This document shows positions 2,624 through 53,985 of a stretch of 64,000 nt of DNA, piece by piece. The position numbers and the translations under genes are program-made. How positions within the stretch are numbered: position 1 is the first letter of the stretch; each line of letters opens with the position of its first letter. The DNA is from an uncultured Pelagibacteraceae bacterium. Lineage in GTDB: Bacteria > Pseudomonadota > Alphaproteobacteria > Pelagibacterales > Pelagibacteraceae. Under the pieces are notes generated by a model. The model was not told the origin of the DNA, searched no databases, and saw only the letters and a program-made list of their open reading frames with translations. The stretch covers positions 109,878 to 173,877 of the forward strand of contig CACICY010000001.1 in NCBI GenBank assembly GCA_902585265.1, in the 5' to 3' direction.

Positions 2624-4354
2624 TTACCTTTTAATTATAATGTTATTAAGAACTAAAGCATCCATTCTTGTTCTTAGAAAACAATTGATTGCATCTTTAT
2701 AATTCATAACTATTGGCTCATTTTCATTAAAAGAGGTATTTAGTATAATTGGAACTCCAGATAATTTTTCAAATTTTTTTATAATTGAATAAAAATTATA
2801 ATTATTTTTTTTTGATATTGTTTGTACTCTTCCTGTTCCATCTATATGAGTAACCGCAGGTATCTTTTTACTTTTTGTCGGTTTAATTGTCTCAACAACA
2901 GACATGTAAGGATTTAATAGGTTATTTCCAAACCATCTATTTTTTCTTTCAATTATTATTGTTGGAGCGAAAGGTCTAAAATTCTCTCTCCTTTTAATCT
3001 TTCTATTGATAATTTCTTTTATTTTGGGATTACAGGGATTAGCTATAATTGACCTATTTCCTAAAGCTCTAGCTCCAAATTCCATTCTACCATTAAAATA
3101 TCCAATTATTTTATTTTTATAAATTAATTTTGCAATTTCAGTGAATAAATAATTATAGTTTGAGTATTTTCTTAGATTAAATTTTTTCATAGATTTATGA
3201 TTTACAATATAATTTATTATCTCATCATTTGAATAATGCGGTCCAATATATGGAGATGATAAATTTTTAAATATTTTATAATTATATTTTTTGTTTAAAA
3301 CTACTAGAGCTGATCCTATTGACCCACCCCCATCTCCAGGTGCGTAAGGTATGAATATTTTTTTAAATATATTACTTTCTAAAATTTTTTTATTTGCTAG
3401 TGAATTTAATGCACACCCACCAGAATAAACAAGATTTTTGGAGAAATTTAATTTATTAATTTTATTAATAATATTTAAAAGTTTGTGTTCAAATACTTGC
3501 TGAACAGAAGAAGCAAGATCTTTATGTTTTTTACCAATTTTATTTTCTTTTAAAAACGGAAATTTTTGGAATGCTGTATTATTTAAAAGTTTAGATTGAT
3601 TGGGTTTTCCACTAAATTTGTACTTAAAATCTTTTCCTGTATGTCTAAAATAATCTAGATTTAAATCTATATTTTTCTTATTATTAAAAAAACTATTTAA
3701 TATTTCATTAAAATATCTTGGAGAACCATAAGAAGATAACCCCATAACTTTGTACTCATCTCCATAATTTGAAAAACCTAAAATTTGAGTAAAAGCCTCA
3801 TAAAATACACCTAAGGAATGAGGAAAATAAATTTTATCAATAATTTTAATTTTCTTATTTTCACATTTTGCAATTGCAACACTACAAAAATCACCAAATC
3901 CATCTACAGATAGACCTATTGCTTTACTAAATTTTGATGGATAAAAAGCTGAAGCTAAATGTGATAGATGGTGATCAATAAAATGAAGTTTTACATTTTT
4001 ATTTAATTTATCTTTTTTGAAATTTTTATTTATATTATCTAATAAATTAAATTTATTTTTTGTTCTTTTAAAAATTTCTTTCTTTTTCGACCCAACAATA
4101 TAATTTCTTAAAAAAAATGAGGCTTTTTGAGTAATATTTGAAAATGGATTAGTGTTTATAGCTATGTCAGTTACATCAGAAATTTTTAAATTTTTATAAG
4201 TTAAACACGCTTTAATTGAATTTATTGGCAAACCAGCCCAATGTTTTGTTCTATTTATTCTTTCTTCCTCAATTCCAAATTCTAATTTATTATCAACAAA
4301 TAAACAGGCAGAAGAGTCTGCATGATAACAGTTTAAACCCAGTACAATCGTCAT
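2624..4354 (-). CDS. Carbamoyltransferase (NodU/CmcH/TobZ family)
   Basis: MTIVLGLNCYHADSSACLF, IEEERINRTKHWAGLP, DHHLSHLASAFYPS, GRMEFGARALGNRSI, RENFRPFAPTI. Confidence 0.92.
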   Translation of the reverse strand: MTIVLGLNCYHADSSACLFVDNKLEFGIEEERINRTKHWAGLPINSIKACLTYKNLKISDVTDIAINTNPFSNITQKASFFLRNYIVGSKKKEIFKRTKNKFNLLDNINKNFKKDKLNKNVKLHFIDHHLSHLASAFYPSKFSKAIGLSVDGFGDFCSVAIAKCENKKIKIIDKIYFPHSLGVFYEAFTQILGFSNYGDEYKVMGLSSYGSPRYFNEILNSFFNNKKNIDLNLDYFRHTGKDFKYKFSGKPNQSKLLNNTAFQKFPFLKENKIGKKHKDLASSVQQVFEHKLLNIINKINKLNFSKNLVYSGGCALNSLANKKILESNIFKKIFIPYAPGDGGGSIGSALVVLNKKYNYKIFKNLSSPYIGPHYSNDEIINYIVNHKSMKKFNLRKYSNYNYLFTEIAKLIYKNKIIGYFNGRMEFGARALGNRSIIANPCNPKIKEIINRKIKRRENFRPFAPTIIIERKNRWFGNNLLNPYMSVVETIKPTKSKKIPAVTHIDGTGRVQTISKKNNYNFYSIIKKFEKLSGVPIILNTSFNENEPIVMNYKDAINCFLRTRMDALVLNNIIIKR

Positions 4355-4357
4355 TAA

Positions 4358-5332
4358 TTACTGATTATGTTTTTTTTTAATTTCTGATAAAATCCATTGG
4401 TAAGTTTTATCTAAACCTGATTGTAAAGTATATTTTGGATCCCAGTTTAATTGTTTTCTAATTAAATCATTATTACTATTTCTACCTCTAACACCTTTTG
4501 GTTTATCTAATTGGTAATTTCTTTTTATTTTTTTATTTGAAATTATTTCAATTTTGTCAATCATTTCGTTTATTGATACTTTTTCTTCACTACCAATATT
4601 AATTGGTCCATGGTATTCTGAATCAAATAGTCTTAAAGTAGCTTCTACACAATCATCAATGTATAAAAATGATCTAGTTTGTTCACCATCACCCCAAACA
4701 TCTATAGTATTTTCATTATTCAGAATAGAATAGATTACTTTTCTACATAAAGCTGCTGGAGCCTTTTCTCTTCCTCCATCATAAGTTCCGTGTGGACCAT
4801 ATATATTATGATATCTTGCAACCTTTACATCTAAACCATAATCTTCAAAAAAATGTCTACACATTCTCTCACTAAATAATTTTTCCCAACCATAACCATC
4901 TTCTGGATTGGCTGGATAAGCATCACTCTCTTTTAAGCCTGTAATACTTACGTCGTTTTGTAAGTCTTTGTTATATGCACATGCACTTGAGGAAAAGAAA
5001 TATTTTTTTATTTTATATTCTTTACATGCCATTAATAAATGAGTGTTCACTAAAACAGATAACATGCATAAAGCTTTATTATTTTCTATGAAACCCATGC
5101 CACCCATATTGCAGGCCATGTTTATAACTTCATCCACTCCTTCAACCATCTTGAAGCAGTTTTCTTTATCCGACATATCTAATACATGATTTTCAGACTC
5201 ATTAGAACACTGATACCAATCGTCAAACGACTTAATATCAACTGCTTTAACAATATAATTTCTTTTTAGGAGAGTTTTAACTAAGTGACCTCCAATAAAA
5301 CCACCTGCACCTGCAACTAAAATTTTTTTCAT
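4358..5332 (-). CDS. NAD-dependent epimerase, GDP-mannose 3,5-epimerase-like (extended SDR)
   Basis: GAGGFIGGHLV Rossmann motif; ACNMGGMGFIENNKALCM resembles plant/bacterial GDP-mannose 3,5-epimerases; YGWEK catalytic motif. Confidence 0.8.
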   Translation of the reverse strand: MKKILVAGAGGFIGGHLVKTLLKRNYIVKAVDIKSFDDWYQCSNESENHVLDMSDKENCFKMVEGVDEVINMACNMGGMGFIENNKALCMLSVLVNTHLLMACKEYKIKKYFFSSSACAYNKDLQNDVSITGLKESDAYPANPEDGYGWEKLFSERMCRHFFEDYGLDVKVARYHNIYGPHGTYDGGREKAPAALCRKVIYSILNNENTIDVWGDGEQTRSFLYIDDCVEATLRLFDSEYHGPINIGSEEKVSINEMIDKIEIISNKKIKRNYQLDKPKGVRGRNSNNDLIRKQLNWDPKYTLQSGLDKTYQWILSEIKKKHNQ

Positions 5333-9544: not shown

Positions 9545-10839
9545 CAATTATTTAAATATGGGACTAAGCCCAAACAAATAAAATAAAAAATTCCGTTAAA
9601 AGTAGAAAAAAAAGACCCAGTGGTTTGAATTGGAAAAAAAAGAATAAAAATGTAAGACAGTAACAAGGCTTTAACATTAGAGTTAGTATTTTTTATTGAT
9701 TGTAATAATATATTAATGATCAAAAATACGAAAAGTGTGATACCAACAGTTCCGGTTTCTGAAAAAATTTCTATATAAATATTATGTGGGTGTGTTGCGC
9801 ACCCATAATCATTAGGAATATTTAAATCAGATTTATTAGTGTACTTAGGATTTTTACACGAATTTCTAAAAGTTTTTATACCACTGCCAATAAGAATATT
9901 TTGTTTACCAATCTCGAATGCTTTTGAATAATGTTTAAACCATTGTGTTTCAAAAAAATTGTTTTCATTAGCTCTATTTTTTTGTTTAAGATGAGATTCA
10001 AAAGAATGTTTCCGCTCGTTAAAATAATTTCTTTGAATGTTGAAAAAAATTTTTTCAATATAAGTAAAACCAAGTTGTCCAGATGTATAAGTTATTTTAT
10101 CTCTCAAATTTTTAGATAAAGAAAAAGTAATCAATGAAATTGATATTAAAATTATTAATAATTTAAATGAATTGATCAAATTAATTTTCTTATTAAAAAA
10201 TATAAAAATAAAACATGAGAGAAAATATAATATTGCGGGAGCCCTATCGCCTGTTAAAAGTACAGCAAAAAAACTTAAGATAAATAAAATTGATTCAATT
10301 TTTATATTTTTAAATACTAAAATTAGATAAATAAATGCTGGTGATAAAAGTTTAACAATATAGCTTCCTGCTACACTCTCATCATAAAAAAGTCCATTAA
10401 TTCTATTTATATTTCTATAAGTCGTGATCTCATAGTAAAAAAATTCAATTATAACCGAGATTGATATAATTATAATTGCAAATAAAGTAGAAATTGAGAA
10501 GTTTTTAAAATTTTTTTTTTTATCAGTTAACCAAAAAAAAAGAAGAATGCTGAAGAGAAGATTTTTTATTAGACCTAAAGAGCCAATTACTGACAAATAT
10601 AAATTTTCTGAAAAAAAAAGGTTCAATAAAATAAAAGTTAAAAAAAAAAGAAAATAATATTTATATCTATTTATTAGTTCTTTAATATCCTTGATATACT
10701 TAAATGACCCAAAGACTATTATTAATAATAAATTTAAATTTAGTACATAATTTCCCGTTATTATGGAAAATGGAATTATTATTATCAATATATCAAGATA
10801 ATTATAATAATTATTAAATATCTTTTTTTTTAAAAACAT
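9526..10839 (-). CDS. O-antigen ligase family protein
   Basis: 437 aa polytopic; LTGDRAPAILYF, GSGIKTFRN, THPHNIYIEIFSETGTVGI signature of the Wzy_C/O-antigen ligase domain. Confidence 0.85.
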   Translation of the reverse strand: MFLKKKIFNNYYNYLDILIIIIPFSIITGNYVLNLNLLLIIVFGSFKYIKDIKELINRYKYYFLFFLTFILLNLFFSENLYLSVIGSLGLIKNLLFSILLFFWLTDKKKNFKNFSISTLFAIIIISISVIIEFFYYEITTYRNINRINGLFYDESVAGSYIVKLLSPAFIYLILVFKNIKIESILFILSFFAVLLTGDRAPAILYFLSCFIFIFFNKKINLINSFKLLIILISISLITFSLSKNLRDKITYTSGQLGFTYIEKIFFNIQRNYFNERKHSFESHLKQKNRANENNFFETQWFKHYSKAFEIGKQNILIGSGIKTFRNSCKNPKYTNKSDLNIPNDYGCATHPHNIYIEIFSETGTVGITLFVFLIINILLQSIKNTNSNVKALLLSYIFILFFPIQTTGSFFSTFNGIFYFICLGLVPYLNNCYKSIK

Positions 10840-10913
10840 TATGAAATATTATGATTATTTATAATTTATAACTTTAAAATATAGAAAATAAATGTTTATC
10901 TTACTTATCAAGT

Positions 10914-11942
10914 ATGATTTCTGAATATTTTTATAATGATATGAGCTTAGAAAAATATGTTGTATTATTTATATCATTTGGATTTATATTGTTAGTTATT
11001 TCTCATCTTACTAATGTTTTTTTTATTAAGTTCAACATTCTTGATTTTCCTAATGAAAGAAAAATTCACAAAAAACCAATACCAAACTCAGGCGGTACGA
11101 TATTAATTGTATCGATTTTTTTATTCTATATTATTTTAGACGTCATATTTAAAATAAACTTATACTTTTATATAAATATAATCATAATTTCTTTAATTTT
11201 TTATATATTGGGTTTAGTTGACGATTTAAAGAACCCTAGAACAATAATTAAAATTTTTTTGATTTTTATTATATTAATTTTATCACTATTGAAATTTAGT
11301 GAATTAGTTGTTTCAGAATTAAGGTTTAATTATATTTATGAACAAAGTATTTCTTTAGGATATTTGGCAATCCCATTTACTATATTTTGCGTTTTTATGT
11401 TTTTTAATGCTTTAAATTATTCAGATGGTAAAAATGGTATATGTATATCTTATTCTATTTTTTTAATGATTTTTCTTTCATTAATTAATAGTGATAATGA
11501 TAATGATTTATTCAATCATTTTATAATCTTATCTCTATCAATTCTATTAATTTTTAATTTAAGTAATAAACTGTTTTTAGGAAACAGCGGAGTCAATTTT
11601 ATTTCTATATTCTTAAGTCTACTTATTATTAAAATATACAATTTTGATAAAAGTATTCTTTTTTGTGATGAAATATTTCTTTTGATGCTAATACCTGGGG
11701 TAGATGCTGCTCGAGTTACAATTCTAAGAATTTATAAGAAAATTTCTCCATTCAGCCCAGATAGAAATCATTTCCACCACTATTTGTCAAAATTCATAAA
11801 TAATAATTATATTTGGGTTATATATTTGTTTCTATCTTCACTACCGATCATTGTCTTATATATTTCATCAAATTTCTTAATAGCAGTTTTTATTCCTATA
11901 ATTATCTATACATTATTAATATTTAAATCTTTTAATTATTGA
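10914..11942 (+). CDS. MraY/WecA-family (glycosyltransferase family 4) sugar-1-phosphate transferase, divergent
   Basis: DFPNERKIHKKPIPNSGG, GLVDDLKNPRT, NALNYSDGKNGI, LFLGNSGVN, SPDRNHFHHYL. Confidence 0.85.
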   Translation: MISEYFYNDMSLEKYVVLFISFGFILLVISHLTNVFFIKFNILDFPNERKIHKKPIPNSGGTILIVSIFLFYIILDVIFKINLYFYINIIIISLIFYILGLVDDLKNPRTIIKIFLIFIILILSLLKFSELVVSELRFNYIYEQSISLGYLAIPFTIFCVFMFFNALNYSDGKNGICISYSIFLMIFLSLINSDNDNDLFNHFIILSLSILLIFNLSNKLFLGNSGVNFISIFLSLLIIKIYNFDKSILFCDEIFLLMLIPGVDAARVTILRIYKKISPFSPDRNHFHHYLSKFINNNYIWVIYLFLSSLPIIVLYISSNFLIAVFIPIIIYTLLIFKSFNY

Positions 11943-41839: not shown

Positions 41840-42217
41840 TTAATCTATTTTTTTCCTCATTGTTTCTTTTGGATCATGAACCCCATCAATTAGATTTACA
41901 AATAACGAACTTTTGGTTCTTGATGAAAACTTAAACCATGTACCAGGATCAATCTTTAAAATTACTTTATTATTTAAATTTAAATTTTTTATTTTTCTTT
42001 TACTTTTGAGTGTAAATTTGATCTTTCCACTTATTACTAAAATAATACATTGATATTTCTTGTGAAGAATCCAATCATTTTTTTTCTTTGAAATTTTTAT
42101 ATTATTAAAATAGATTTCTCCAAATTTTTTTAAAAACTTGCTTTTTTTATTAGCAAATTTAATTAATTTTCCAATCTTAGTTTTGAATACTTTATTTTTA
42201 TAAATTTTATACATCAA
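41840..42217 (-). CDS. Cupin-fold protein, dTDP-4-dehydrorhamnose 3,5-epimerase-like
   Basis: 125 aa; WILHKKYQCIILVISGKIKFTLKSK, DPGTWFKFSS cupin pattern; adjacent to rfbG/rfbF-like genes. Confidence 0.55.
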   Translation of the reverse strand: MMYKIYKNKVFKTKIGKLIKFANKKSKFLKKFGEIYFNNIKISKKKNDWILHKKYQCIILVISGKIKFTLKSKRKIKNLNLNNKVILKIDPGTWFKFSSRTKSSLFVNLIDGVHDPKETMRKKID

Positions 42218-43269
42218 TGATTTAAAAATTCTTTAATTTGATTTTTTGTAACCAAATATGGATTTTTTTTATCAATTAAAGTTTTTTTGTACCATTCTAC
42301 TGTAAAATGAATACTTTCAAAAATTGTTAGTTTTGGTCGCCAAGAAAGTTTTTTCTTAGCTTTATTTATATTTAATTGTAAATTTTTTTGTTCATAATAT
42401 TTATTTTTTTTTTTAAATTTTAATTTTCCTCTTCCCCAAATTTTTATTATTTTTTTTACTACTGTTAAAACATCTGTTACAGTATTTTTTTCTGATCCAA
42501 AATTCCAAGCGCCTGAAAACTTTAGCGGATTTTCATATAATTTTTTTGCTAAAATTAAATAACCATTAAGTGGCTCCAAAACATGCTGCCAAGGTCTATT
42601 GAAATATGGATTTCTTAAAACAATTGTTTTATTAGAATTTATTGATTTTATACAATCAGGTATTAGTCTGTTCTCTGACCAATCGCCTCCACCTATAACA
42701 TTACCAGCTCTCACAGTTGCTACTCCACATCTCTTTTTATTTTTAAAAAAACTTTGATTATAAGTATTTGCAATAATTTCAGCACATGCTTTTGAACCAC
42801 TATACGGATCTTCTCCTCCCAAACTATCTTCTTCAACAAATCCTTTGATAGAATTATTGCTTTTATAACACTTGTCTGAAGTGACACAAACAATTGACTT
42901 AACTTTATTATTTGACCTTAATATTTCTAATATGTTCAAAGTTCCCACACTATTAATTGTATACGTGTCTACAGGATCTGTATAACCTTTAATTATTAAA
43001 GGTTGCGCGGCCATATGAAAAACTATTTCAGGCTTAAAAGTTTGAATGATTTTTTTTAATTTTTTAAAATTTCTAACATCAACTAAAGAACATTTTATTT
43101 TTTTATTAAGTTTTAATTTATAAAATAAATTTTTATTTTTATTTGGTGAAAATCCTATTCCATAAACCTTTGCACCAATTTCATTTAACCATAGACATAA
43201 CCAAGAACCCTTGAACCCTGTTGCGCCAGTGACAAGAATTTTTTTATTTTTATAGAATTTATTTACCAT
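42214..43269 (-). CDS. rfbG: CDP-glucose 4,6-dehydratase
   Basis: KKILVTGATGFKGSWLCLWLNEIGAKVYGIG, HMAAQPLIIKGYTDPVDTYTINSVGTLNILE, GNVIGGGDWSENRLIPDC, RPWQHVLEPL; ATG at 43269. Confidence 0.93.
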   Translation of the reverse strand: MVNKFYKNKKILVTGATGFKGSWLCLWLNEIGAKVYGIGFSPNKNKNLFYKLKLNKKIKCSLVDVRNFKKLKKIIQTFKPEIVFHMAAQPLIIKGYTDPVDTYTINSVGTLNILEILRSNNKVKSIVCVTSDKCYKSNNSIKGFVEEDSLGGEDPYSGSKACAEIIANTYNQSFFKNKKRCGVATVRAGNVIGGGDWSENRLIPDCIKSINSNKTIVLRNPYFNRPWQHVLEPLNGYLILAKKLYENPLKFSGAWNFGSEKNTVTDVLTVVKKIIKIWGRGKLKFKKKNKYYEQKNLQLNINKAKKKLSWRPKLTIFESIHFTVEWYKKTLIDKKNPYLVTKNQIKEFLNH

Positions 43270-43970
43270 TTTTTCCATGGCGCATTTCCATTTGACCAGA
43301 TTTTGTTTAAATATTTTTTTTCTCTTAAAGTATCCATACATTGCCAGAATTTATAATGCTTGTAAGCATATAATTTTTTATTTTTTGTGAGTTTTTCAAA
43401 AGTTTTTTTTTCCAAAATTGTGTTGTCATCTTTTATATATTTAAACACCTCCTTTCTCATGATGAAAAAGCCTCCATTTATCCAATTTTGTGTTGCCTGA
43501 GGTTTTTCTTTAAAACTTAAAACTTCACTTTTTGCAGAGATTTTAATCTCTCCAAATCTTACTGGTGGTCTTACTGCTGTTAAGGTTACTATACCTTTAT
43601 GTTTATTGTGAAATTTGATTAACTCTCTAATATTTACGTTACTCAATCCGTCTCCATAAGTAACAAAGAAATCGCTATCTCCAATTATTTTTTTTAAACG
43701 TAATATACGACCCCCAGTTAAAGTATCTTTACCTGTAAAGCATGCTTTCACATTACAGTTATAAATCTTATTTTTTTCAAAATAATTTTTTATCACATTT
43801 GATTTATAACCAGTAGCCAAAATAAAATCATTCAAACCATAATGTTTAAAGTATTTTATCAAGTGCCATAATATTGGTTTTTGACCAATTTTAACCATTG
43901 GTTTAGGTTTTAAAGCGGTTTCTTCCGCTATCCTTGTGCCAAGCCCTCCACATAAAATTAATACTTTCAT
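43263..43970 (-). CDS. rfbF: Glucose-1-phosphate cytidylyltransferase
   Basis: MKVLILCGGLGTRIAEETALKPKPMVKIGQKPILWHLIKYFKHYGLNDFILATGYK; VTYGDGLSNVN; WINGGFFIM; WQCMDTLREK. Confidence 0.95.
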   Translation of the reverse strand: MKVLILCGGLGTRIAEETALKPKPMVKIGQKPILWHLIKYFKHYGLNDFILATGYKSNVIKNYFEKNKIYNCNVKACFTGKDTLTGGRILRLKKIIGDSDFFVTYGDGLSNVNIRELIKFHNKHKGIVTLTAVRPPVRFGEIKISAKSEVLSFKEKPQATQNWINGGFFIMRKEVFKYIKDDNTILEKKTFEKLTKNKKLYAYKHYKFWQCMDTLREKKYLNKIWSNGNAPWKKW

Positions 43971-44113: not shown

Positions 44114-44887
44114 TTAATTTGTAACAACGTTATCTATTTCTATAATATATTTTTTCGGCATTTTAAGAACTGGTAATTTGAAATGCTGACCTCTCCAAAT
44201 TTCAATATTATCATTGATAAAATTTAAACTACTTTGAGCCGGTTTTTTTCGCAATAGTGGAGAAAGTAATTTAGCTTTTATTAAATTTTCTATTGAATTT
44301 TTTGCATGTTTAAGAACATCTTTAGATATCTGGTTTGCTTTTAATGTTTCATACCAAACATTTTCCATAATTATCATCATTATATCTAAACCAGTTGGCA
44401 TTTTAAAACTATTATCAAACTGCTCCCAATCGACAAATAGAACCTCTTCAATACCATTAAACATTACATTACCAACTAACGATAAATCTCCATGAAATGG
44501 GGAATACAATTTATTTTTATAATCATGCCATATTTCAATATAATGTTGTATTGTTAAGTCTAAATATTTTTTTATTTTTTGATAAGAGGTGTTAGTGTTT
44601 ATATTAAAAAAACCTTTATTAAGTTGAATTTCAATTTTATAATAAGTTTTTGTTTTTATATCAAAATTGCAAACAATTTTATTTTTACTTAAGTGATTAT
44701 ACCATTCTATACCTTTGTATTCTGAAATTATCGAATTAATTCCATTTTTTGTTGTTGATGTTTTAATGATACTATCAGAAACTAAACGTTGTTGATTGTT
44801 TGAGACAATTAAAAAGGTTTCTGAACCGTGTCTATGAACTCCTTTGATATATTTCACTTTTTGGCAACTATAATGATTGCTGGACAA
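44114..44887 (-). CDS. APH/choline-kinase-like phosphotransferase
   Basis: SPFHGDLSLVGNVMFNGIEEVLFVDWEQF matches the HGDxxxxN...DWE kinase motif. Confidence 0.7.
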   Translation of the reverse strand: MSSNHYSCQKVKYIKGVHRHGSETFLIVSNNQQRLVSDSIIKTSTTKNGINSIISEYKGIEWYNHLSKNKIVCNFDIKTKTYYKIEIQLNKGFFNINTNTSYQKIKKYLDLTIQHYIEIWHDYKNKLYSPFHGDLSLVGNVMFNGIEEVLFVDWEQFDNSFKMPTGLDIMMIIMENVWYETLKANQISKDVLKHAKNSIENLIKAKLLSPLLRKKPAQSSLNFINDNIEIWRGQHFKLPVLKMPKKYIIEIDNVVTN

Positions 44888-45894
44888 AAATTTCTTGCTT
44901 TAAGATATTTCATCAAAAAAATTTCAAAATATTTAAATATAAAATTTTGTTTCCATGTAATTATATCCTTATTCTCGTAAATCTCATATTTGCTAATTCC
45001 CTCTCTAGAATTAGGTACAACTAGAGAAGGGAAATGATACATTGGAAAACAACAATAATCATCAATTTGCGTAAAACCAGCTTCTTTTAAGAGAATTTTT
45101 AATTCATTAAAGGAATAGATGTGAGTTCTGTAATCTTTTTTTTTAAAAAATCTGCAAATTATATTAGATATAAATCTTGGTAAGAATGTTGTAAATCTTA
45201 AATTTACATGAGGGTCTGGTTTACCCATTAAATATCCATAGAAAAGTTTATTTTCTATTGCTAACAAAAGTTGACCTTCTTTATTGAGGCTTTCATGAAC
45301 CTTCTTTAAAAATGCTAATTGCATTTCTCTAGGTTTTTTTAATTTATTTTCATCAGTTGATTTTTTTGATTTAGAATTGGAATTACTTAAATATTCATCA
45401 ACAATAATTTCTGATTTTTCTGGTATCCATTCAAGCACGCCATTAACTATTGCATAGTCTGCTATATTCTTAAACTCAATTTCTCTAATATCATCTTGTA
45501 CCAAATGAATATTGTCTAAACCTTCCTCTTTAGAACGAAATTTAAGAAAATTAAGTGAGTCATGTGTTTTGTCTACAGCGATAACTTCATGACCACGCTT
45601 GGCCATTCCAACTGATAATACTCCCCACATAGCTCCATAATCAATACAGATACCCTTTTTATTATGATCTAAAAGTTCTAATGCAGCTTCTCTTTTTGAG
45701 GAAAAGATCATTTCCTCAAACTTAGGCATAAATGATTTCACAGCACTCTTACAATCTTTATTTTTTAATATTTCTAAGAACTCCTTATTATGTACTTGTG
45801 ATAGATTAGACCAATACCCAGACCTTCCTGATAAAAAAATATCCTCGACGCAATTATCGTATATTGATTTAAGATATGTTCTAAGATCAGTCAT
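44854..45894 (-). CDS. Class I SAM-dependent methyltransferase
   Basis: NKKGICIDYGAMWGVLSVGMAKRGHEVIAVDKTHDSLNFLKFRSKEEGLDNIHLVQDDIRE; ALENKLFYGY region. Confidence 0.82.
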   Translation of the reverse strand: MTDLRTYLKSIYDNCVEDIFLSGRSGYWSNLSQVHNKEFLEILKNKDCKSAVKSFMPKFEEMIFSSKREAALELLDHNKKGICIDYGAMWGVLSVGMAKRGHEVIAVDKTHDSLNFLKFRSKEEGLDNIHLVQDDIREIEFKNIADYAIVNGVLEWIPEKSEIIVDEYLSNSNSKSKKSTDENKLKKPREMQLAFLKKVHESLNKEGQLLLAIENKLFYGYLMGKPDPHVNLRFTTFLPRFISNIICRFFKKKDYRTHIYSFNELKILLKEAGFTQIDDYCCFPMYHFPSLVVPNSREGISKYEIYENKDIITWKQNFIFKYFEIFLMKYLKARNFCPAIIIVAKK

Positions 45895-46750
45895 TTTTAA
45901 ATTTATTATTTATTTTAAGTTCTTCAACATAAAGTTCAGCCCATCTAGATCTTACACCAAAGAAAAATGATGCAATAAATCTTGTAAAAATTCTTAATGA
46001 AATAATCAAATAAATATAAAAAGTTAAATTATAGTCAAAATAAATATCAATTATAATTAAAAGAAGTATAAAATCTACACTTCTAGCTCTATCGTCAAAA
46101 AAATCTTTGAAAATATTTAACCACTTTGGATATTTAATTTGAATATTGTTTGTAGAATTTTTATTATTAACATTCTTGTTGGCACCGTCGGGTATTTTTT
46201 TATTATTAGATAAGATTACTTTCAAATCCTCAAGAATTATTTTTTTTCCAGCAGAGGTAAATACCTCACTATGCAAAAATGCAATGACCGCTATAAGATA
46301 AATCAAAAATTGATAATTTGTTTGATGAAAAACAAAAAAGCCCAATCCAATCGTCAAACCAATGGAATTTAAAATTGCACCGTAAACATCAAGTATATGA
46401 CCAGTCAATGTTGGTTTGTATTTAATACGAGCCAGTTGGCCATCAGTCCAATCTAATATTCCTTTGCTAAAAAAAATAAAAACACCAATAATATTAAATT
46501 GAAAATAAGGTATTGATAAAAAAATACCACCTATAATTCCACACAAGCAGTAACAAATAGTAACCATGTTAGGTGTTATTCGTGATTTTAATAAAACATA
46601 TACAAGGAAAACACTTGGATACATGTAATATCTAGCTTTTAAATAAGTATAAGGATTTTTTTTAAAATTATTTAAGTAAGGGAATTTTGTAAATTGTTGA
46701 TCAAATATAATTTTTTTTATATCCTTAATATTCAATGTTCTGTAGTCCAT
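45887..46750 (-). CDS. CDP-alcohol phosphatidyltransferase family protein
   Basis: RITPNMVTICYCLCG; DWTDGQLARIKYKPTLTGHILDVYGA matches DxxDGxxARx8Gx3Dx3[D], with the last Asp replaced by Ala. Confidence 0.85.
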   Translation of the reverse strand: MDYRTLNIKDIKKIIFDQQFTKFPYLNNFKKNPYTYLKARYYMYPSVFLVYVLLKSRITPNMVTICYCLCGIIGGIFLSIPYFQFNIIGVFIFFSKGILDWTDGQLARIKYKPTLTGHILDVYGAILNSIGLTIGLGFFVFHQTNYQFLIYLIAVIAFLHSEVFTSAGKKIILEDLKVILSNNKKIPDGANKNVNNKNSTNNIQIKYPKWLNIFKDFFDDRARSVDFILLLIIIDIYFDYNLTFYIYLIISLRIFTRFIASFFFGVRSRWAELYVEELKINNKFKND

Positions 46751-46790
46751 TATTTTTTTTTTATCATGATTCGATTAAGACTATTATGAG

Positions 46791-46819
46791 TTGACCAACA
46801 TCAATAGCTCTATTAATAT
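46791..46819 (+). promoter_or_regulatory. Candidate sigma70-type promoter for the phosphonate operon
   Basis: TTGACC (46791-46796), 17-nt spacer, TAATAT (46814-46819) in the divergent intergenic region upstream of 46893. Confidence 0.35.
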
Positions 46820-46892
46820 TAATTATAAAAAATATAATTTATAATTAAAAACATCAAAACTTAATTAATTACTTTATTTTTAAATCTATCAA

Positions 46893-48197
46893 ATGAAAAA
46901 AAATAAACAAGTATATGTAGGTCTTTCGGCCGATATTTTACATGAAGGTCATATAAATATTTTAAAAATAGCAAATAAATTTGGTGAAGTTATTGTGGGT
47001 TTACTTACTGATGAAGCAATTTCTAGCTATAAATCAATTCCTCATCTCTCATATAAGCAAAGAGAAATTATATTAAAAAATATGAGACTTGTTAGAAAAG
47101 TTATTCCACAAAAAACTTTAGATTATACTCAAAATTTAAGACTTATTAAGCCTGACTATGTAGTCCACGGGGATGATTGGAAAACTGGAGTTCAAAAAAA
47201 AACAAGATCAAAAGTTATAAAAGAATTAAAAAAATGGAACGGTAAATTAATTGAACCCGGGTATACAAAAAATATTTCATCGACAATAATAAAAAATAAA
47301 ATTTTAGACATAAGCTTGTTACCACAAAATAGAGTATCTAGGCTAAAACGTCTTTTTTCATCCAAAAAAATAGTTCGAATATTAGAATCGCACAACTCAC
47401 TAACTGGTTTGATAATTGAAAATCTTAAAATAAAAAAAAATAATAAAGAAATTCAATTTGATGGTATGTGGTCATCTAGTTTAACTGACTCTGCAACTAG
47501 GGGTAAACCTGATAATTCTTCACTTGATTTATCTGTAAGAGTTTCTTCATTAAGCGATATGATGGATGCTACAACAAAACCTTTGATTTTTGATGCTGAT
47601 AATGGAGGTCAGATAGAACATTTGCCATATTTAATTAAATCTTTAGAAAGAGTAGGAACTTCAGCCATTATAATAGAAGATAAGATTGGTCTCAAAAAAA
47701 ATTCATTGTTTAAAAATCAAACAGGTACACAACAAGATAAACCTCAAGTTTTTGCAAAAAAAATAAAAAAGATATGTTTTTCTAGAAAGTCTAAAAATTT
47801 TATGGTTATTGCAAGAATAGAAAGTTTTATTTTAGGAAAAGGGTTAGATGATGCTTTAAAAAGAGCCAAGGTTTACTCAAAAGCTGGGGCCGATGCAATT
47901 TTGATACATAGTAAAGAAAAAACACCAAAAGAAATTTTTTCATTTTCTAAAGAATTTAGGAAAAGTAAAAACTTTATTCCTTTAGTTTCTGTTCCCTCAA
48001 CATACTCAAAAGTATATGAAAAAGATTTGATAAAAAATGGTTTTAAATTAGTTATATATGCAAATCAATTATTAAGAGCTGCTTATCCAGCAATGCTAAA
48101 TACAGCTGAAACAATACTTAAAAAAGGTCGAGCTTTTGACATTGAAAAAAAAATTATACCAATAAAAGAAATAATAAGTTTAATTAAAAATGATTAA
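46893..48197 (+). CDS. pepM: Bifunctional nucleotidyltransferase (TagD-like) - phosphoenolpyruvate mutase fusion
   Basis: N-term VYVGLSADILHEGHINILKIA...GLLTDEAISSYK...HGDDWKTG (HxGH cytidylyltransferase); C-term DADNGG, EDKIGLKKNSLF (PepM EDKxxxxKxNS), ARIESFILGKG. Confidence 0.93.
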   Translation: MKKNKQVYVGLSADILHEGHINILKIANKFGEVIVGLLTDEAISSYKSIPHLSYKQREIILKNMRLVRKVIPQKTLDYTQNLRLIKPDYVVHGDDWKTGVQKKTRSKVIKELKKWNGKLIEPGYTKNISSTIIKNKILDISLLPQNRVSRLKRLFSSKKIVRILESHNSLTGLIIENLKIKKNNKEIQFDGMWSSSLTDSATRGKPDNSSLDLSVRVSSLSDMMDATTKPLIFDADNGGQIEHLPYLIKSLERVGTSAIIIEDKIGLKKNSLFKNQTGTQQDKPQVFAKKIKKICFSRKSKNFMVIARIESFILGKGLDDALKRAKVYSKAGADAILIHSKEKTPKEIFSFSKEFRKSKNFIPLVSVPSTYSKVYEKDLIKNGFKLVIYANQLLRAAYPAMLNTAETILKKGRAFDIEKKIIPIKEIISLIKND

Positions 48198-49290
48198 AAT
48201 TCACTCTTTAATTAAATTATTGAAAAAAAATAATAGTTACTTCTTTACAGGTGTTCCTGATAGTGTCTTAGAAGATTTATCTAATTATTTACAAAAAAAA
48301 GATAGAAAAAATCATATTATAGCTACTAATGAAGGGTCTGCTATATCTTTAGGTATTGGTCATTACCTTTCAACAAATAAATTGCCGATTGTTTACATGC
48401 AAAATTCAGGCTTATCAAATGCACTAAATCCTTTAATCTCAATAGCTCACAAAAAGGTTTATTCTATACCTTTGATTTTAATTATTGGCTGGAGAGGTTC
48501 TCCAAGATTTAAAGATGAACCCCAACATAAAGTAAAGGGGGGTGTCACAGAAAAATTTTTAAAATTATTAGATATAAAATACACAATCTTAAGGACCAAT
48601 ACTGATCTGAATAGATTTAATAAACAAATAAAATTTGCAAAGAAAAATAAAACTATCGTGGCTTGTTTAATTGAAAAAGGAACACTAAAAGGAAAAAACA
48701 TTTTAGAAAAGAAAAAAGATTATTATAATTTAGATAAAGAATTTTTTTTAAAGACTTTGTTAGATAGTCTTAATAAAAAAACAAAAATTATTGTAAGCAC
48801 TGGATATAATTCTAGAGAAATTATTTATCTCAAAAAAAAATATAAATTTCAAAACGATAATGACTTCTATATGGTTGGTGGTATGGGCCATACATTATCA
48901 GTTGCTTTAGGGTATTCATTATCAAGTAAAAATAAGATTATATGTATTGACGGAGATGGGTCACTTTTAATGCACTTGGGTTCTCTAAAAACAGCTGGAA
49001 CTTTTGGTACAAAGAATCTTAAGTATATATTATTAAATAACAATTCCCATGACTCTGTTGGGGGTCAGAGAACTTATTCAGATAGTGTAGATTTTTTAAA
49101 ACTTTCTAAAAGTCTAGGATTTAAATATTATTATAATATCAAAAATAAAAATAATCTAAAAAAAACTGTTAAACAATTTCTCTTTAAAAGTGGTTTAGGT
49201 TTTTTAGAAGTAAAGGTTGGGAATAGTAGAATTAAGAATCTTCCTAGACCAAAAGATTTAATCAAAATAAAAAATCAATTTATGAAATAA
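48190..49290 (+). CDS. ppd: Phosphonopyruvate decarboxylase (TPP-dependent)
   Basis: FFTGVPDSVLEDL, IIATNEGSAISLGIGHYLSTNKLPIVYMQNSGLSNALNPLISIAHKKVYSIPLILIIGWRG; MVGGMGHTLSVALGYSL, CIDGDGSLLMHLGSL. Confidence 0.93.
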   Translation: MIKIHSLIKLLKKNNSYFFTGVPDSVLEDLSNYLQKKDRKNHIIATNEGSAISLGIGHYLSTNKLPIVYMQNSGLSNALNPLISIAHKKVYSIPLILIIGWRGSPRFKDEPQHKVKGGVTEKFLKLLDIKYTILRTNTDLNRFNKQIKFAKKNKTIVACLIEKGTLKGKNILEKKKDYYNLDKEFFLKTLLDSLNKKTKIIVSTGYNSREIIYLKKKYKFQNDNDFYMVGGMGHTLSVALGYSLSSKNKIICIDGDGSLLMHLGSLKTAGTFGTKNLKYILLNNNSHDSVGGQRTYSDSVDFLKLSKSLGFKYYYNIKNKNNLKKTVKQFLFKSGLGFLEVKVGNSRIKNLPRPKDLIKIKNQFMK

Positions 49291-50391
49291 ATGCTTAGCT
49301 CTATAGAAGATGTAATAAAATTTATACAAGATAAGAATTTCAAAAAAATTTTTGTTCTTTGTGGAAAAAAGTCTTTTGAAAACTCTGGTGCTCAGGATCT
49401 ACTAAAAAAAACAAAAAATAATAATCAAATCAAACTATTTTATAAAAGCTCATACATACCAATTATAGAAGAATTAATTAATATAGTAAAAGAAATTAAA
49501 AACTTTAAACCTAATCTAATACTAGCCATAGGTGGAGGATCAGTAATTGATTATGCTAAAATAGCGAACTTAGTCGATACAATACCCAATTTAAGAAACT
49601 TAATAATTAATTATTCTTATCCATTAAAAAAAAAATATGCACAACTAGCAGTTATTCCAACAACAGCTGGATCAGGAGCTGAGGTTACTTCTAACGCTGT
49701 AATTTATGTTGATGGTATCAAATATTCATTTGAAAATGAATTATTGATACCTGACAATTATTTCTTAGTGCCTGAATTTATAATTTCAGCACCTGATAAA
49801 ATAAAAGCTTCTTCTGGATTTGACGCAATTGCACAAGCATTAGAATCATTGATTTCAAAAAAATCCAACACTGTAAGCGTAGATTATGCAACAAAATCCC
49901 TTAAAATTTCGATTGAAAAATATATTTCTTTTTTAAATGATCCAAATTTAAAAAATGCTGCAGAGATGAGTATTGCTGCCAATCTTGCTGGTAAAGCTAT
50001 AAATATATCAAAAACCACTGCTCCCCATGCAGTATCTTATCCATTTACGTCCCTATACAATATAAGCCATGGTCACGCTGTTAGTTTATTTTTTGAGAAA
50101 TTTTTTGAGTTTAATTTCACTAATTTAGAAAAATCTGAAACAAATTTTGATCTAAAAGAAAGATTCAATCTGATATTTAATATTTTTAAAATTAAAAATT
50201 TTTATGAATTTTCTACAAAAATTACTTTGATTAAACAAAAAGCAAAATTAGAAGATAATTTAGACAAATTAAATATTAACTTAAAAGGAAATACTCACAA
50301 TATAATTAAAGGAATTAATTTATTAAGATTGGGAAATAATCCAATTAAGATAAATGAGAAAAATATTTTAGATTTAATGCTAAAAAAATAA
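49291..50391 (+). CDS. Iron-containing alcohol dehydrogenase, likely phosphonoacetaldehyde reductase
   Basis: LILAIGGGSVIDYAKIAN, LAVIPTTAGSGAEVTSNAVIYV, ASSGFDAIAQALESL, SHGHAVSLFF; immediately follows ppd. Confidence 0.88.
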   Translation: MLSSIEDVIKFIQDKNFKKIFVLCGKKSFENSGAQDLLKKTKNNNQIKLFYKSSYIPIIEELINIVKEIKNFKPNLILAIGGGSVIDYAKIANLVDTIPNLRNLIINYSYPLKKKYAQLAVIPTTAGSGAEVTSNAVIYVDGIKYSFENELLIPDNYFLVPEFIISAPDKIKASSGFDAIAQALESLISKKSNTVSVDYATKSLKISIEKYISFLNDPNLKNAAEMSIAANLAGKAINISKTTAPHAVSYPFTSLYNISHGHAVSLFFEKFFEFNFTNLEKSETNFDLKERFNLIFNIFKIKNFYEFSTKITLIKQKAKLEDNLDKLNINLKGNTHNIIKGINLLRLGNNPIKINEKNILDLMLKK

Positions 50392-50402
50392 TTTAAAACT
50401 AA

Positions 50403-52214
50403 TCAACTATTTTTTAAAAGAGAAGCCATTTTTTTAGAAGGACTTGAACAATTTTTTGCAAATTTTTCACAAAATTTCTTTATGGCATCTTGTACATGAC
50501 TTTGCTGCCACCAACCATCCACATCATCCCAAATCTCATTCACCTTATCCGCGACTGATTTAGCAGACAAATGCACAATTCCTACATCGACGAGCATTTG
50601 ATAATGAGGCTTAACGTTGTCACGCAAATGATCAAAGTCATTTTGCCAAAAAGCTAAGGTTGGAACATTTTGAGACAACGTTTCCAAAAGGCCAGTCGAG
50701 TCATAACTATGCACAACCAATCTAGCATCTGCAATTAGATGATTAATAGCAACCTCCCCAGTCTCAATTTTAAGTGTTGGATCGAAGTCAAGCCATTTAG
50801 AATCTTCACTAAATAATTTATAGCGAAATGCAAGGTCTAACTTTATGGTGAGTTTTTTCCTTGGTGTGATATCGAGTTTGCTTACAAATTCTTTCTGATC
50901 TTCGAAATATTTATCAAACTCACTAAAAGCATCCCAAGTAACAAATTTGTTTTTTATTGATGTCTCAATTAGCAACAGTCCGCCTTGTTTATTGTAATTT
51001 TTTTTTTTTTTTCCTGCTGTTTTAAAAATAAAAGCTGGTATGTATTTTGATAATCCATTCTCCCAACCCCAGGTAAAAAATTTATCTGCGGTTTTTTCTT
51101 CTACTCTAGGAAAATAATTTTTAATTGTATAATAATTGTTTCCATGCTGACCAATGTAATATTTTACGCCATCTTCAACTTTTATCGCTGCCCATAATTT
51201 AAAAATTTCATCCGTATGAAAGTTATTGCTAGTAAAAATAAATTTAGGTGATTTAGGCCAAGGCTGTTGATTTACGATCTTTTTAAGATCTGCAAACCCT
51301 TCCAAATAATAGACAGGCAACAATTCAAATAATAGTGAACGTAAGATATTTTCTAGATCGTTCTCTGATTTGTATACAAACTGTTCAGTCAGGCTTTTGC
51401 GTAATAATTGGTTAGGTTTCACATCTATTTCTGGTGTTAACCTCCTCCATAACTGTGGCCACTGCCCTAAAGCTAATTCTAATTTGATTTCTTCTCTTAA
51501 GGGAAGGAAACTATTTATTATAAATGCATCCTCATCTCTAACAAATCTTTTTGCGATTATTTTATAACCTTGGTGGCCCCATTTTAAAAATTTTTTTTTA
51601 AAGGAAACATGATTATTCAAAGCTTTAATTTTAAAACCTGGAAAACCACTTAATACATCTTTTTCTCTCAGAAGTTCTATAGGAAGGTTGCCTGTCTCCA
51701 ACAAAGTTAAAATTCGAGCAGTTAAAAAATTATTCCATCGCACATCATTTAAAGCCACAATTGCAGAGCCAAAATCTAGTGTTGCTAAATTGTAATGATC
51801 ACTAGTATAAACAGTGGTACCAGAAATCTCATATAACTGTAAACAATGTTTAAGTGTATTAACGCTTTTAAATATTAAATTCACAAACAGTTTAAACCAG
51901 TGCCCTACAACAATCCGCCAAAACCGTTCATCATGATTTGTACCGTGATGTTGGTTTAGTATTTCATAAAAATCGGTGAAAAGTTTTTCCTCTAGCTTTT
52001 TCACCTTAGAATAATCAGTATCTTTCTTGAATTCTCCCAAGCCATAAGGTTTTGCAACTACAGCATCCATGTCCTGCCAAATATGCTTTCTATCATATAG
52101 GCGACACCAATCTCCCAAAAAAACTACAGGTCGATCAAACTTCCATGTCAGCTCATTTGCTGAAGTAATCAGATAATATTTTTGTTTAGTTAGCATTCTT
52201 TCGAAAGCTATCAC
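50403..52214 (-). CDS. LIC12162-family putative transferase
   Basis: YYLITSANELTWKFDRPVVFLGDWCRLYDR; GQHGNNY, RLVVHSYDSTGLLETLSQNVPTLAFW typical of the family. Confidence 0.72.
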   Translation of the reverse strand: MIAFERMLTKQKYYLITSANELTWKFDRPVVFLGDWCRLYDRKHIWQDMDAVVAKPYGLGEFKKDTDYSKVKKLEEKLFTDFYEILNQHHGTNHDERFWRIVVGHWFKLFVNLIFKSVNTLKHCLQLYEISGTTVYTSDHYNLATLDFGSAIVALNDVRWNNFLTARILTLLETGNLPIELLREKDVLSGFPGFKIKALNNHVSFKKKFLKWGHQGYKIIAKRFVRDEDAFIINSFLPLREEIKLELALGQWPQLWRRLTPEIDVKPNQLLRKSLTEQFVYKSENDLENILRSLLFELLPVYYLEGFADLKKIVNQQPWPKSPKFIFTSNNFHTDEIFKLWAAIKVEDGVKYYIGQHGNNYYTIKNYFPRVEEKTADKFFTWGWENGLSKYIPAFIFKTAGKKKKNYNKQGGLLLIETSIKNKFVTWDAFSEFDKYFEDQKEFVSKLDITPRKKLTIKLDLAFRYKLFSEDSKWLDFDPTLKIETGEVAINHLIADARLVVHSYDSTGLLETLSQNVPTLAFWQNDFDHLRDNVKPHYQMLVDVGIVHLSAKSVADKVNEIWDDVDGWWQQSHVQDAIKKFCEKFAKNCSSPSKKMASLLKNS

Positions 52215-53985
52215 TGGTTTGAATTAACTCTTCAAATTTTCCTTGTGCTTTGAGTTTACCTTTCTCTAATAAAAAAATATTATCACAATTTTTCACGGTG
52301 CTCAAACGATGTGCAATTAAAATGATGGTAATGTTTTTACCAATTTTATGTATAGCCTCCATTATCTCTCGTTCAGTTAGATTATCTAAGGAGCTAGTAG
52401 CTTCATCTAAAATTAGTATTCGTGGGTTGTGGTAGAGCGCTCTTGCAATACCAATACGCTGACGCTGACCACCAGATAATCTTACACCACGCTCACCAAT
52501 AGTGGTTTGATATTGTTGAGGTAATTCATTAATAACAAACCCATGTATGTTTGCAATTTTAGCAGCACTTTCAATGGCTTTTTGATTAACATCCTTGGCG
52601 TCAATACCAAAAGAAATATTAGCAGTTACAGTGTCATCCGCTAAATAAATATGCTGTGGTACATAACCAATAGAATTTTGCCAAGCTCTACTATTATTAT
52701 TATTTTTGTTTATAACTTTTCCATCCACTTCCAACGTTCCTTGCTGGGCTTCAAGTAAGCCAAGGATGATATCTACTGTAGTAGTTTTACCACTGCCAGT
52801 AGCACCCACCAATCCTACAGTAGTTCGAGCGGGAATAGTAAGATTAATATCTTTCAAAGCTGTTCGTGTTGTATTAGGGTAATTGTAATAAACATGATTA
52901 AGAGTAATGCTCTTATTTAAAGGCAAGGTTTCTTTCTTTTCGTTGTAAGATATTGTTAATTGTAGGCTTTTTAGATCATCGTGTATAGAGTTAAGTGTGG
53001 GAACGACAGAACGCAATTGAGAAATAGCAAGATATAACTGTTGCAGAGCAGGCATTAAACGATAACCAGCAAAAGCGTAAAGTGCGATAATCGGCACAAT
53101 ACTTATAAAAGCACTACTTTGAGCCATTAAATATAAAACAACCAGCAGCATGCCACCAAAGATAATTATTTCAATAGCATAACGAGGTAAGAGTCCTATA
53201 GCTCCCAACATAGCTTGATACTTGGAAAAATTCTGGGCTGGTTCAGCAAAACGTTTGATATAAATTTTCTCTAGACCACCTACTTTTACTTCTTTAGCTG
53301 CTCCAAATGCTTCACTCACAGCAAAAAAGCGCAAATTGTTTGATTCTAAACGCTTTTGACCAATTCTGGTAAGTAAACCACGGATTAATTTATAAATAAA
53401 TCCATAAGCTGCGCTTAGTGTGAAACATATAATAAGTGCAAGCTTTGGGTCAGTCACAATTAATAATGATACCAGTGTAAAGACAACAGCACCATGAGCT
53501 ATTAGGTTTATCATTGGACTTATGCCATTACCAACAACTATACTGACTTCCGAAAGAATATTCTTGCCAAGATCAGCACTGTGACGATTTAAAAACCAAC
53601 TGTAAGGTTGATGCAAATAGCCTTCTATTAGACGCCTACCTATACTGTACTCACGCATTGTAATAAAACGTTGTTGTAAATAAAATGTTAACCCCTTGAA
53701 AGACAGCGATACACTCAATAATATAAATACTAGTATTCCCAAAGCAAATATAAACTGTTGATTTGTTTCAACACCGAATATAGTTGCAATATGAAACATT
53801 GTGTTTAGTAAAGCGTTAGTTTTAATAATTTCTGGGTCAGCTAGTACAATCAAAAACGGCATGATCGAAGCTACACCAATCATTTCTAGAAGAGCCATTA
53901 TGACGATCATTATTATCAATAAGGACATCTTTTTACGCTCATTAGATGATAGTAAGTATAAAATTTTTTTTAAGGTCTGGGTCAT
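52186..53985 (-). CDS. ABC transporter, fused permease/ATPase (MsbA/PglK-like)
   Basis: TMD followed by VGLVGATGSGKTTTVDIILGLL Walker A, RLSGGQRQRIGIARALYHNPRILILDEATSSLD. Confidence 0.95.
   Translation of the reverse strand: MTQTLKKILYLLSSNERKKMSLLIIMIVIMALLEMIGVASIMPFLIVLADPEIIKTNALLNTMFHIATIFGVETNQQFIFALGILVFILLSVSLSFKGLTFYLQQRFITMREYSIGRRLIEGYLHQPYSWFLNRHSADLGKNILSEVSIVVGNGISPMINLIAHGAVVFTLVSLLIVTDPKLALIICFTLSAAYGFIYKLIRGLLTRIGQKRLESNNLRFFAVSEAFGAAKEVKVGGLEKIYIKRFAEPAQNFSKYQAMLGAIGLLPRYAIEIIIFGGMLLVVLYLMAQSSAFISIVPIIALYAFAGYRLMPALQQLYLAISQLRSVVPTLNSIHDDLKSLQLTISYNEKKETLPLNKSITLNHVYYNYPNTTRTALKDINLTIPARTTVGLVGATGSGKTTTVDIILGLLEAQQGTLEVDGKVINKNNNNSRAWQNSIGYVPQHIYLADDTVTANISFGIDAKDVNQKAIESAAKIANIHGFVINELPQQYQTTIGERGVRLSGGQRQRIGIARALYHNPRILILDEATSSLDNLTEREIMEAIHKIGKNITIILIAHRLSTVKNCDNIFLLEKGKLKAQGKFEELIQTSDSFRKNAN

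Follow-up and report, generated by a model that had tools for sequence, protein, structure and literature searches.

Positions 44114 to 50391 of the 64,000-nucleotide stretch of DNA analyzed here (hereafter the window), taken from a SAR11 genome of 990 kb that is ~69% complete, carry two divergent gene sets that together probably form a tailoring cassette for 2-hydroxyethylphosphonate (HEP), responsible for its synthesis, its activation with cytidine monophosphate (CMP) and its transfer to a surface acceptor. The + strand trio is an ordinary member of the known Fom1-Fom2-FomC module, and this biosynthetic half is known biology. The new part of the locus is the - strand side, a conserved, uncharacterized attachment gene set that includes an atypical CDP-alcohol phosphotransferase (CDP, cytidine diphosphate). 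An earlier sequence-only reading of this DNA had proposed six open reading frames (ORFs), with overlapping or abutting junctions and a 142-bp divergent gap, all of which were borne out by the coordinates:

46893..48197, + strand: Fom1-like fusion, 434 aa, with an N-terminal cytidylyltransferase (CyTase) domain at ~aa 1-140 (HxGH, HGDDW, ISST) and a C-terminal phosphoenolpyruvate (PEP) mutase domain (EDKIGLKKNS)
48190..49290, + strand: phosphonopyruvate decarboxylase (Ppd, Fom2/AepY-like), 366 aa, TIGR03297, with an 8-bp overlap with the fusion gene
49291..50391, + strand: Fe-type alcohol dehydrogenase (Fe-ADH), presumed phosphonoacetaldehyde reductase (FomC/PhpC-like), 366 aa, PF00465, abutting the decarboxylase gene
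46751..46892, no strand: divergent intergenic region of 142 bp, presumably with two promoters (from coordinates)
45887..46750, - strand: CDP-alcohol phosphotransferase lacking the fourth motif aspartate (D4-less), candidate phosphonyl transferase (PF01066; structural model and Foldseek; subfamily alignment; linkage to the PEP mutase PepM)
44854..45894, - strand: S-adenosylmethionine (SAM)-dependent methyltransferase, PF13847 (Methyltransf_31) at 3.2e-9, with an 8-bp overlap with the transferase gene
44114..44857, - strand: aminoglycoside phosphotransferase (APH)/choline-kinase-like kinase, probable GTG start at 44857 (invariant residues in four homologues)

The transferase matched PF01066 (9.7e-8, 33 bits against a gathering cutoff of 22), and its AlphaFold2 (AF2) model (predicted local distance difference test, pLDDT, 76.9) gave AF2299 (4o6m) as the top Foldseek match (E 3.7e-4), confirming the CDP-alcohol phosphotransferase fold at the level of a predicted structure. 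The full family motif, D1xxD2Gx2ARx8-9GxxxD3xxxD4, is incomplete, with the first three aspartates present (D100, D103, D121) and alanine (A125) at the position of the fourth; a DDRARSVD motif lies near the C-terminus, at 219-226. In Mycobacterium tuberculosis PgsA1, D4 (D93) binds metal and is the presumed base (PMC6506517). Alignment of seven members showed D1, D2, D3 and the glycine positions to be invariant and the AR motif to be kept or conservatively changed, with D4 replaced by Ala in the window and in L030, L152, L251, L252 and L253, and by Ser in L153. Most copies retained the C-terminal D-x-R-A-R-[ST]-x-D motif (L253 has DDWDRTVD; the L252 copy is cut within the motif). A profile search with four SAR11 sequences recovered three strong relatives from one distant Pseudomonadota genus (E 1e-61 to 1e-68), the next matches, at ~1e-15, being ~46 orders of magnitude weaker. 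No D4-less transferase was found in the viral contigs searched. In other phyla, the canonical relatives that adjoin Fom1-like genes (L049, L059, L064, L103) kept D4 and had no C-terminal motif. By its sequence, the transferase belongs to a discrete subfamily, an apparently undescribed subtype, and is best treated as a divergent member of the fold whose activity is predicted. As a separate observation, CDP-alcohol phosphotransferases near Fom1-like genes in L053, L066, L074 and L091 had changes at D3/D4 (His, Glu, Ser and others), and active-site drift may be common among such phosphonate-linked enzymes.

The linkage of the divergent genes to phosphonate genes, as proposed in the sequence-only reading, was supported by co-occurrence within SAR11, by synteny and by clusters in a distant genus. 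The fusion was present in 44 of 399 genomes of the genus. A transferase homologue (E < 1e-6) turned up in five genomes, every one of them among those 44 (p = 1.3e-5; 1.2e-4 when leaving out the window's own genome); two of the five homologues (G019, G777) are more loosely related. In the window, L030, L152, L153 and L023, the transferase and the fusion are at most ~1.2 kb apart. Each of the seven genomes with a subfamily transferase, including the three from the distant genus (L251, L252, L253), also encodes a PEP mutase, and the two genes are neighbors in five of the seven.

The two-sided arrangement is kept in L030 (Pelagibacteraceae AG-896-F06), with 54-77% protein identity and a 141-bp gap; its set comprises RfbF, RfbG, a cupin, kinase, methyltransferase, transferase, fusion, Ppd, alcohol dehydrogenase (ADH) and a LIC12162 transferase. 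The order in L152 is Ppd, fusion, ADH, transferase, a methyltransferase of another family, LicD, RfbF, RfbG and cupin. In L251, ~16 kb hold a LIC12162 transferase, RfbF, a glycosyltransferase, kinase, methyltransferase, transferase, ADH, stand-alone CyTase, Ppd and PepM, the last fused to PF12804 instead, so that the parts are shuffled and the set is kept; L252 follows the same order up to the contig end. The L251 cluster also contains two B12-binding radical SAM proteins (3613-5070 and 10040-11557).

The + strand trio was assigned by profile and structure matches. Pfam placed CTP_transf_like (PF01467, 1.8e-13) in the N-terminal domain of the fusion and PEP_mutase (PF13714, 1.1e-47) in its C-terminal domain. 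The mutase domain is PepM, as previously proposed, with 361.5 bits for TIGR02320 against a curated cutoff of 319.55; the identity as isocitrate or methylisocitrate lyase was rejected, since the methylisocitrate lyase model reached just 77 bits while PepM scored above its cutoff. The proposal thereby passes the refuting test that the sequence-only reading had set for this domain. The EDKIGLKKNS string noted earlier is present and fits the EDKxxxxxNS PEP-mutase motif, and EDK-x-G-x-KKNSL is invariant across alignment A1. Amongst Protein Data Bank entries, the fusion matched 5x3d (1.3e-48, the best for the N-terminal domain) and 1m1b/1pym (3.6e-43). The 5x3d record is titled phosphoenolpyruvate phosphomutase, and we take it to be the CyTase domain of Fom1. 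The fusion CyTase domain is 55% identical to that of Fom1, which, combined with the gene context, suggests that it would cytidylylate HEP. This agrees with the expectation that the fused HxGH domain activates the phosphonate with CMP; the earlier reading did not recognize the fusion as the known Fom1 architecture, nor that the transferase is without its fourth aspartate, and was in part upheld.

The decarboxylase is Ppd (TIGR03297, 360 bits against a cutoff of 312.5, with Pfam TPP_enzyme N and C domains), again as proposed. The third gene, which is usually third in such operons, matched Fe-ADH (PF00465, 1.5e-26) and PF25137 in Pfam, and the closest phosphonate model, PsrA (TIGR03405), gave 109 bits, far under its cutoff of 424. 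In the alignment, this Fe-ADH (49291-50391) has Gln where a His usually completes the D-x3-H metal-ligand motif. A scan for this motif in phosphonate-operon Fe-ADHs (L021-L220 and the window) counted 58 with Gln and 15 with His at the ligand position. About 80 loci, spread over many phyla of bacteria and archaea, were retrieved by an alignment-based contig scan, a single-protein query of the contigs having given no relatives, and most of them repeat the order fusion-Ppd-ADH. This recurrence, together with the two-sided arrangement kept in L030, shows that the grouping of the genes is not accidental.

The identity of the phosphonate was addressed by classing the SAR11 fusion loci of one genus sample according to their neighbors within 5 kb. 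Thirty-eight loci were classifiable, to which G672 contributes two; L195, L196, L200, L207, L211, L221 and L222 were left unclassed, and some contigs are truncated. An extra stand-alone CyTase accompanied all 13 loci with a 2-aminoethylphosphonate (AEP) transaminase (AEPT) and five of the six with methylphosphonate synthase (MpnS), versus none of the 19 ADH-only loci (i.e., without AEPT and MpnS), the class to which the window belongs. The overall comparison, 18/19 against 0/19, gave a Fisher p = 1.1e-9, whose strength is overstated given these limits of the sample and the non-independence of related genomes. The loci with the stand-alone enzyme are L022, L023, L153, L188, L191-L193, L201, L210 and L212-L220. 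MpnS assignments were verified against solved MpnS (383 bits), and AEPT was named by resemblance, with scores well below the PhnW cutoffs. Neither MpnS nor AEPT was found in the window's own genome, as far as its ~69% completeness goes. The pattern makes HEP the likely end product at the window, as had been suggested, and these genomic comparisons lend most support to HEP as the product, with the fusion itself activating it. It would also fit a fusion CyTase that is the HEP-specific one, and the stand-alone paralogue may activate AEP or methylphosphonate. Such a pattern would let the export of HEP, methylphosphonate or AEP be read off a SAR11 genome.

Both sides of the module are flanked by genes with a surface-glycan character:

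43263..43970, - strand: RfbF-like glucose-1-phosphate cytidylyltransferase (TIGR02623, 288 bits, just below the cutoff of 300)
42214..43341, - strand: RfbG, CDP-glucose 4,6-dehydratase (TIGR02622, 453.7 bits against a cutoff of 278)
50403..52214, - strand: LIC12162-family (O-antigen associated) transferase (TIGR04331, 359.9 bits against a cutoff of 225), kept beside the module
52186..53985, - strand: PglK/MsbA-like ABC exporter/flippase that may export a glycan (closest NCBIfam model PglK, 322 bits, under its cutoff)

At SAR11 fusion loci, a CDP-alcohol phosphotransferase was nearby in four of the five with RfbF and RfbG versus none of the 24 without them (p = 2e-4), the enzyme at one of the four (L189) being of the canonical type. 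This association favors a glycan acceptor with a CDP-glucose-derived sugar. Homologues of the LIC12162 transferase were found in L030 (54%), L251 and L252. No ORF with a LicD motif was found in the window; LicD-family genes were seen beside phosphonate genes in L152, L153 and L213. Additionally, the G+C content is 30-35% across 50403-53985, where the genes for the LIC12162 transferase and the PglK-like ABC protein lie, versus 19-26% elsewhere in the window, and a recent acquisition of this segment is possible.

Orthologues of the methyltransferase share 71% identity in L030 and 34-35% in L251/L252. The start of the kinase was corrected from the listed TTG at 44887 to GTG at 44857, which is more likely because the L030 homologue starts at the equivalent position and the gene then shares just the 4 bp GTGA, a usual overlap, with the methyltransferase gene. 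For the kinase and METHYLTRANSFERASE, the kinase residues K32, E46, HGD122-124, N130 and DWE143-145 are invariant in four homologues, and the APH/choline-kinase catalytic motifs HGDxxxxN and DxE are present in the ORF. By itself, the kinase ORF gave no Pfam match; a sub-threshold match to PF01636 (E 0.006) was obtained for the L251 homologue only, and the AF2 model (pLDDT 43) was too poor for a fold search. Its designation as APH/choline-kinase-like is therefore a prediction from the invariant residues and this sub-threshold match.

Which enzymes these are, how their genes are linked and that no enzyme for an alternative product was found are computational results; which reactions take place, on what acceptor, and what the methyltransferase and kinase do we infer as follows. 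The PepM domain would convert PEP to phosphonopyruvate, Ppd would decarboxylate this to phosphonoacetaldehyde, and the Fe-ADH would reduce it to HEP, which the CyTase domain of the same fusion would turn into CMP-HEP. The CDP-alcohol phosphotransferase would then transfer the HEP phosphonyl group from CMP onto a hydroxyl of an acceptor bound to the membrane. The acceptor would most likely be a lipid-linked surface glycan with a CDP-glucose-derived 6-deoxy sugar (RfbF/RfbG), subsequently exported, and the methyltransferase and APH-like kinase would modify the same surface structure; O-methylation of HEP by the methyltransferase is possible and is not favored over glycan modification. That the D4-less DxRAR transferase, the methyltransferase and the kinase form a dedicated, undescribed phosphonyl-transfer system, delivering CMP-activated phosphonates to surface glycans without the canonical catalytic base, is put forward tentatively, as a possibility held below even chances.

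Several observations weigh against a HEP cassette with this transfer step. At most SAR11 fusion loci, a transferase of this kind is missing from the neighborhood, which implies that other attachment routes exist. In L152 and L153 the D4-less transferase is accompanied by LicD, a second candidate transferase, and the AEPT of L153 indicates that the subfamily is not HEP-only. The adjacency test counts the locus that prompted it, the window's own genome is incomplete, and lipids are the more frequent substrates of CDP-alcohol phosphotransferases. The replacement of the fourth aspartate, the presumed base (PMC6506517), leaves the predicted catalysis unproven. In Acker et al. 2022 (PMC8931226), the phosphonates of Prochlorococcus SB were recovered in the protein and not the polysaccharide fraction, with glycoproteins proposed as carriers; phosphonates in a protein fraction would also fit a glycan acceptor.

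Amongst the competing explanations, the methyltransferase-kinase pair could act as a chain-terminating cap like WbdD, a bifunctional kinase/methyltransferase, by phosphorylating and then methylating the chain end without acting on HEP. The two overlapping genes do stay together in SAR11 and in the distant genus, but no sequence match to WbdD structures was obtained and, in the present data, the pair never occurred apart from the transferase and the phosphonate genes. We consider this reading somewhat unlikely; it would leave the preferred account of the remaining genes intact. Phosphonolipid synthesis, in which the transferase would use diacylglycerol or some other lipid as the acceptor for HEP, with the glycan genes as unrelated neighbors, draws on the fact that the characterized relatives and closest solved folds of the transferase are lipid or inositol-lipid synthases. 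Clusters of pepM, Ppd, AEPT and NTP-transferase with a CDP-alcohol phosphatidyltransferase in Nostoc and Burkholderia were likewise read as phosphonolipid pathways (PMC5987646). A pure lipid pathway leaves unexplained, however, why RfbF/RfbG, a glycosyltransferase and the LIC12162 transferase accompany the transferase in distant lineages, and we consider it unlikely, although a lipid acceptor stays a serious competitor.

The transferase may also be dead or use an unrelated CDP-alcohol, with HEP attached by the LIC12162 transferase or by a LicD elsewhere in the genome. Such a reading would account for the loss of the fourth aspartate in every subfamily member seen, for the majority of SAR11 fusion loci that do without the enzyme, and for the LicD genes adjoining it in L152 and L153. 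However, the invariance of D1-D3 and the glycines and the mostly retained C-terminal DxRAR over a wide phylogenetic range indicate selection for function, and a PEP mutase occurs in every genome with the transferase, so that this alternative appears quite improbable. Fom3, which methylates CMP-HEP, belongs to the B12-binding radical SAM class, and the two such genes in L251, together with the equivalence of the trio to Fom1-Fom2-FomC, would suit a small secreted phosphonate, i.e., a fosfomycin-like antibiotic, instead of a surface modification. Neither a B12-radical SAM methylase nor an epoxidase gene was seen in the window around the module, though, and the locus sits within a long run of glycan genes, making this very improbable. 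The HEP cassette stays the preferred reading, with the D4-less transferase as a concrete candidate transfer enzyme and as a sequence signature for finding relatives.

Fom1-like genes were also observed in viral contigs from IMG/VR (L107-L134), where the fusion forms a compact cassette with a Ppd split over two ORFs of ~124 and ~154 aa and an Fe-ADH of only ~260 aa, within glycan-gene runs. Of these, L113 carries terminase and portal genes, L115 carries dUTPase and resolvase, and L126, L128 and L129 also carry MpnS. The full fusion was seen in only two fecal contigs among annotated phages.

Earlier publications already describe CyTase-PepM fusions as well as SAR11 pepM clusters with glycan genes alongside. 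According to Rice et al. 2019 (PMC6697681), Fom1 makes CMP-HEP, and 23.6% of PEP mutases carry a PF01467 fusion. In the literature, we found no account of how marine bacteria attach phosphonates to surface polymers. The early fosfomycin pathway of Streptomyces wedmorensis resembles the + strand trio in using a CyTase-PepM fusion, Ppd and an alcohol dehydrogenase to make HEP and activate it as CMP-HEP (PMC6697681), whereas the window module is without the Fom3 methylase and Fom4 epoxidase and has a CDP-alcohol phosphotransferase, methyltransferase and kinase in a surface-glycan island. The Pnt pathway with PntC (Rice et al. 2019) similarly employs a PepM-fused nucleotidyltransferase to activate a phosphonate for the cell surface. 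The characterized PntCs, however, are PF12804 enzymes acting on AEP, and the proposed Pnt attachment mirrors Lic, whereas the window has a PF01467 CyTase, presumably acting on HEP, and a CDP-alcohol phosphotransferase. The pepM clusters of SAR11 and Prochlorococcus SB share the pepM-ppd-reductase set beside glycan assembly genes in marine bacteria; the D4-less transferase, the methyltransferase/kinase pair and the link between stand-alone CyTase and product are not described in the available parts of that work (PMC8931226). The Nostoc II clade and Burkholderia clusters likewise combine PepM, Ppd, a nucleotidyltransferase and a CDP-alcohol phosphatidyltransferase, but theirs is an AEP pathway with AEPT and a proposed lipid product, and RfbF/RfbG and methyltransferase/kinase genes are not named in the accessible portion of that source (PMC5987646). 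Finally, AF2299 and other CDP-alcohol phosphotransferases share the fold and D1-D3 with the window enzyme, which differs in having Ala (Ala or Ser in the subfamily) for the fourth aspartate and an extra C-terminal DxRAR[ST]xD.

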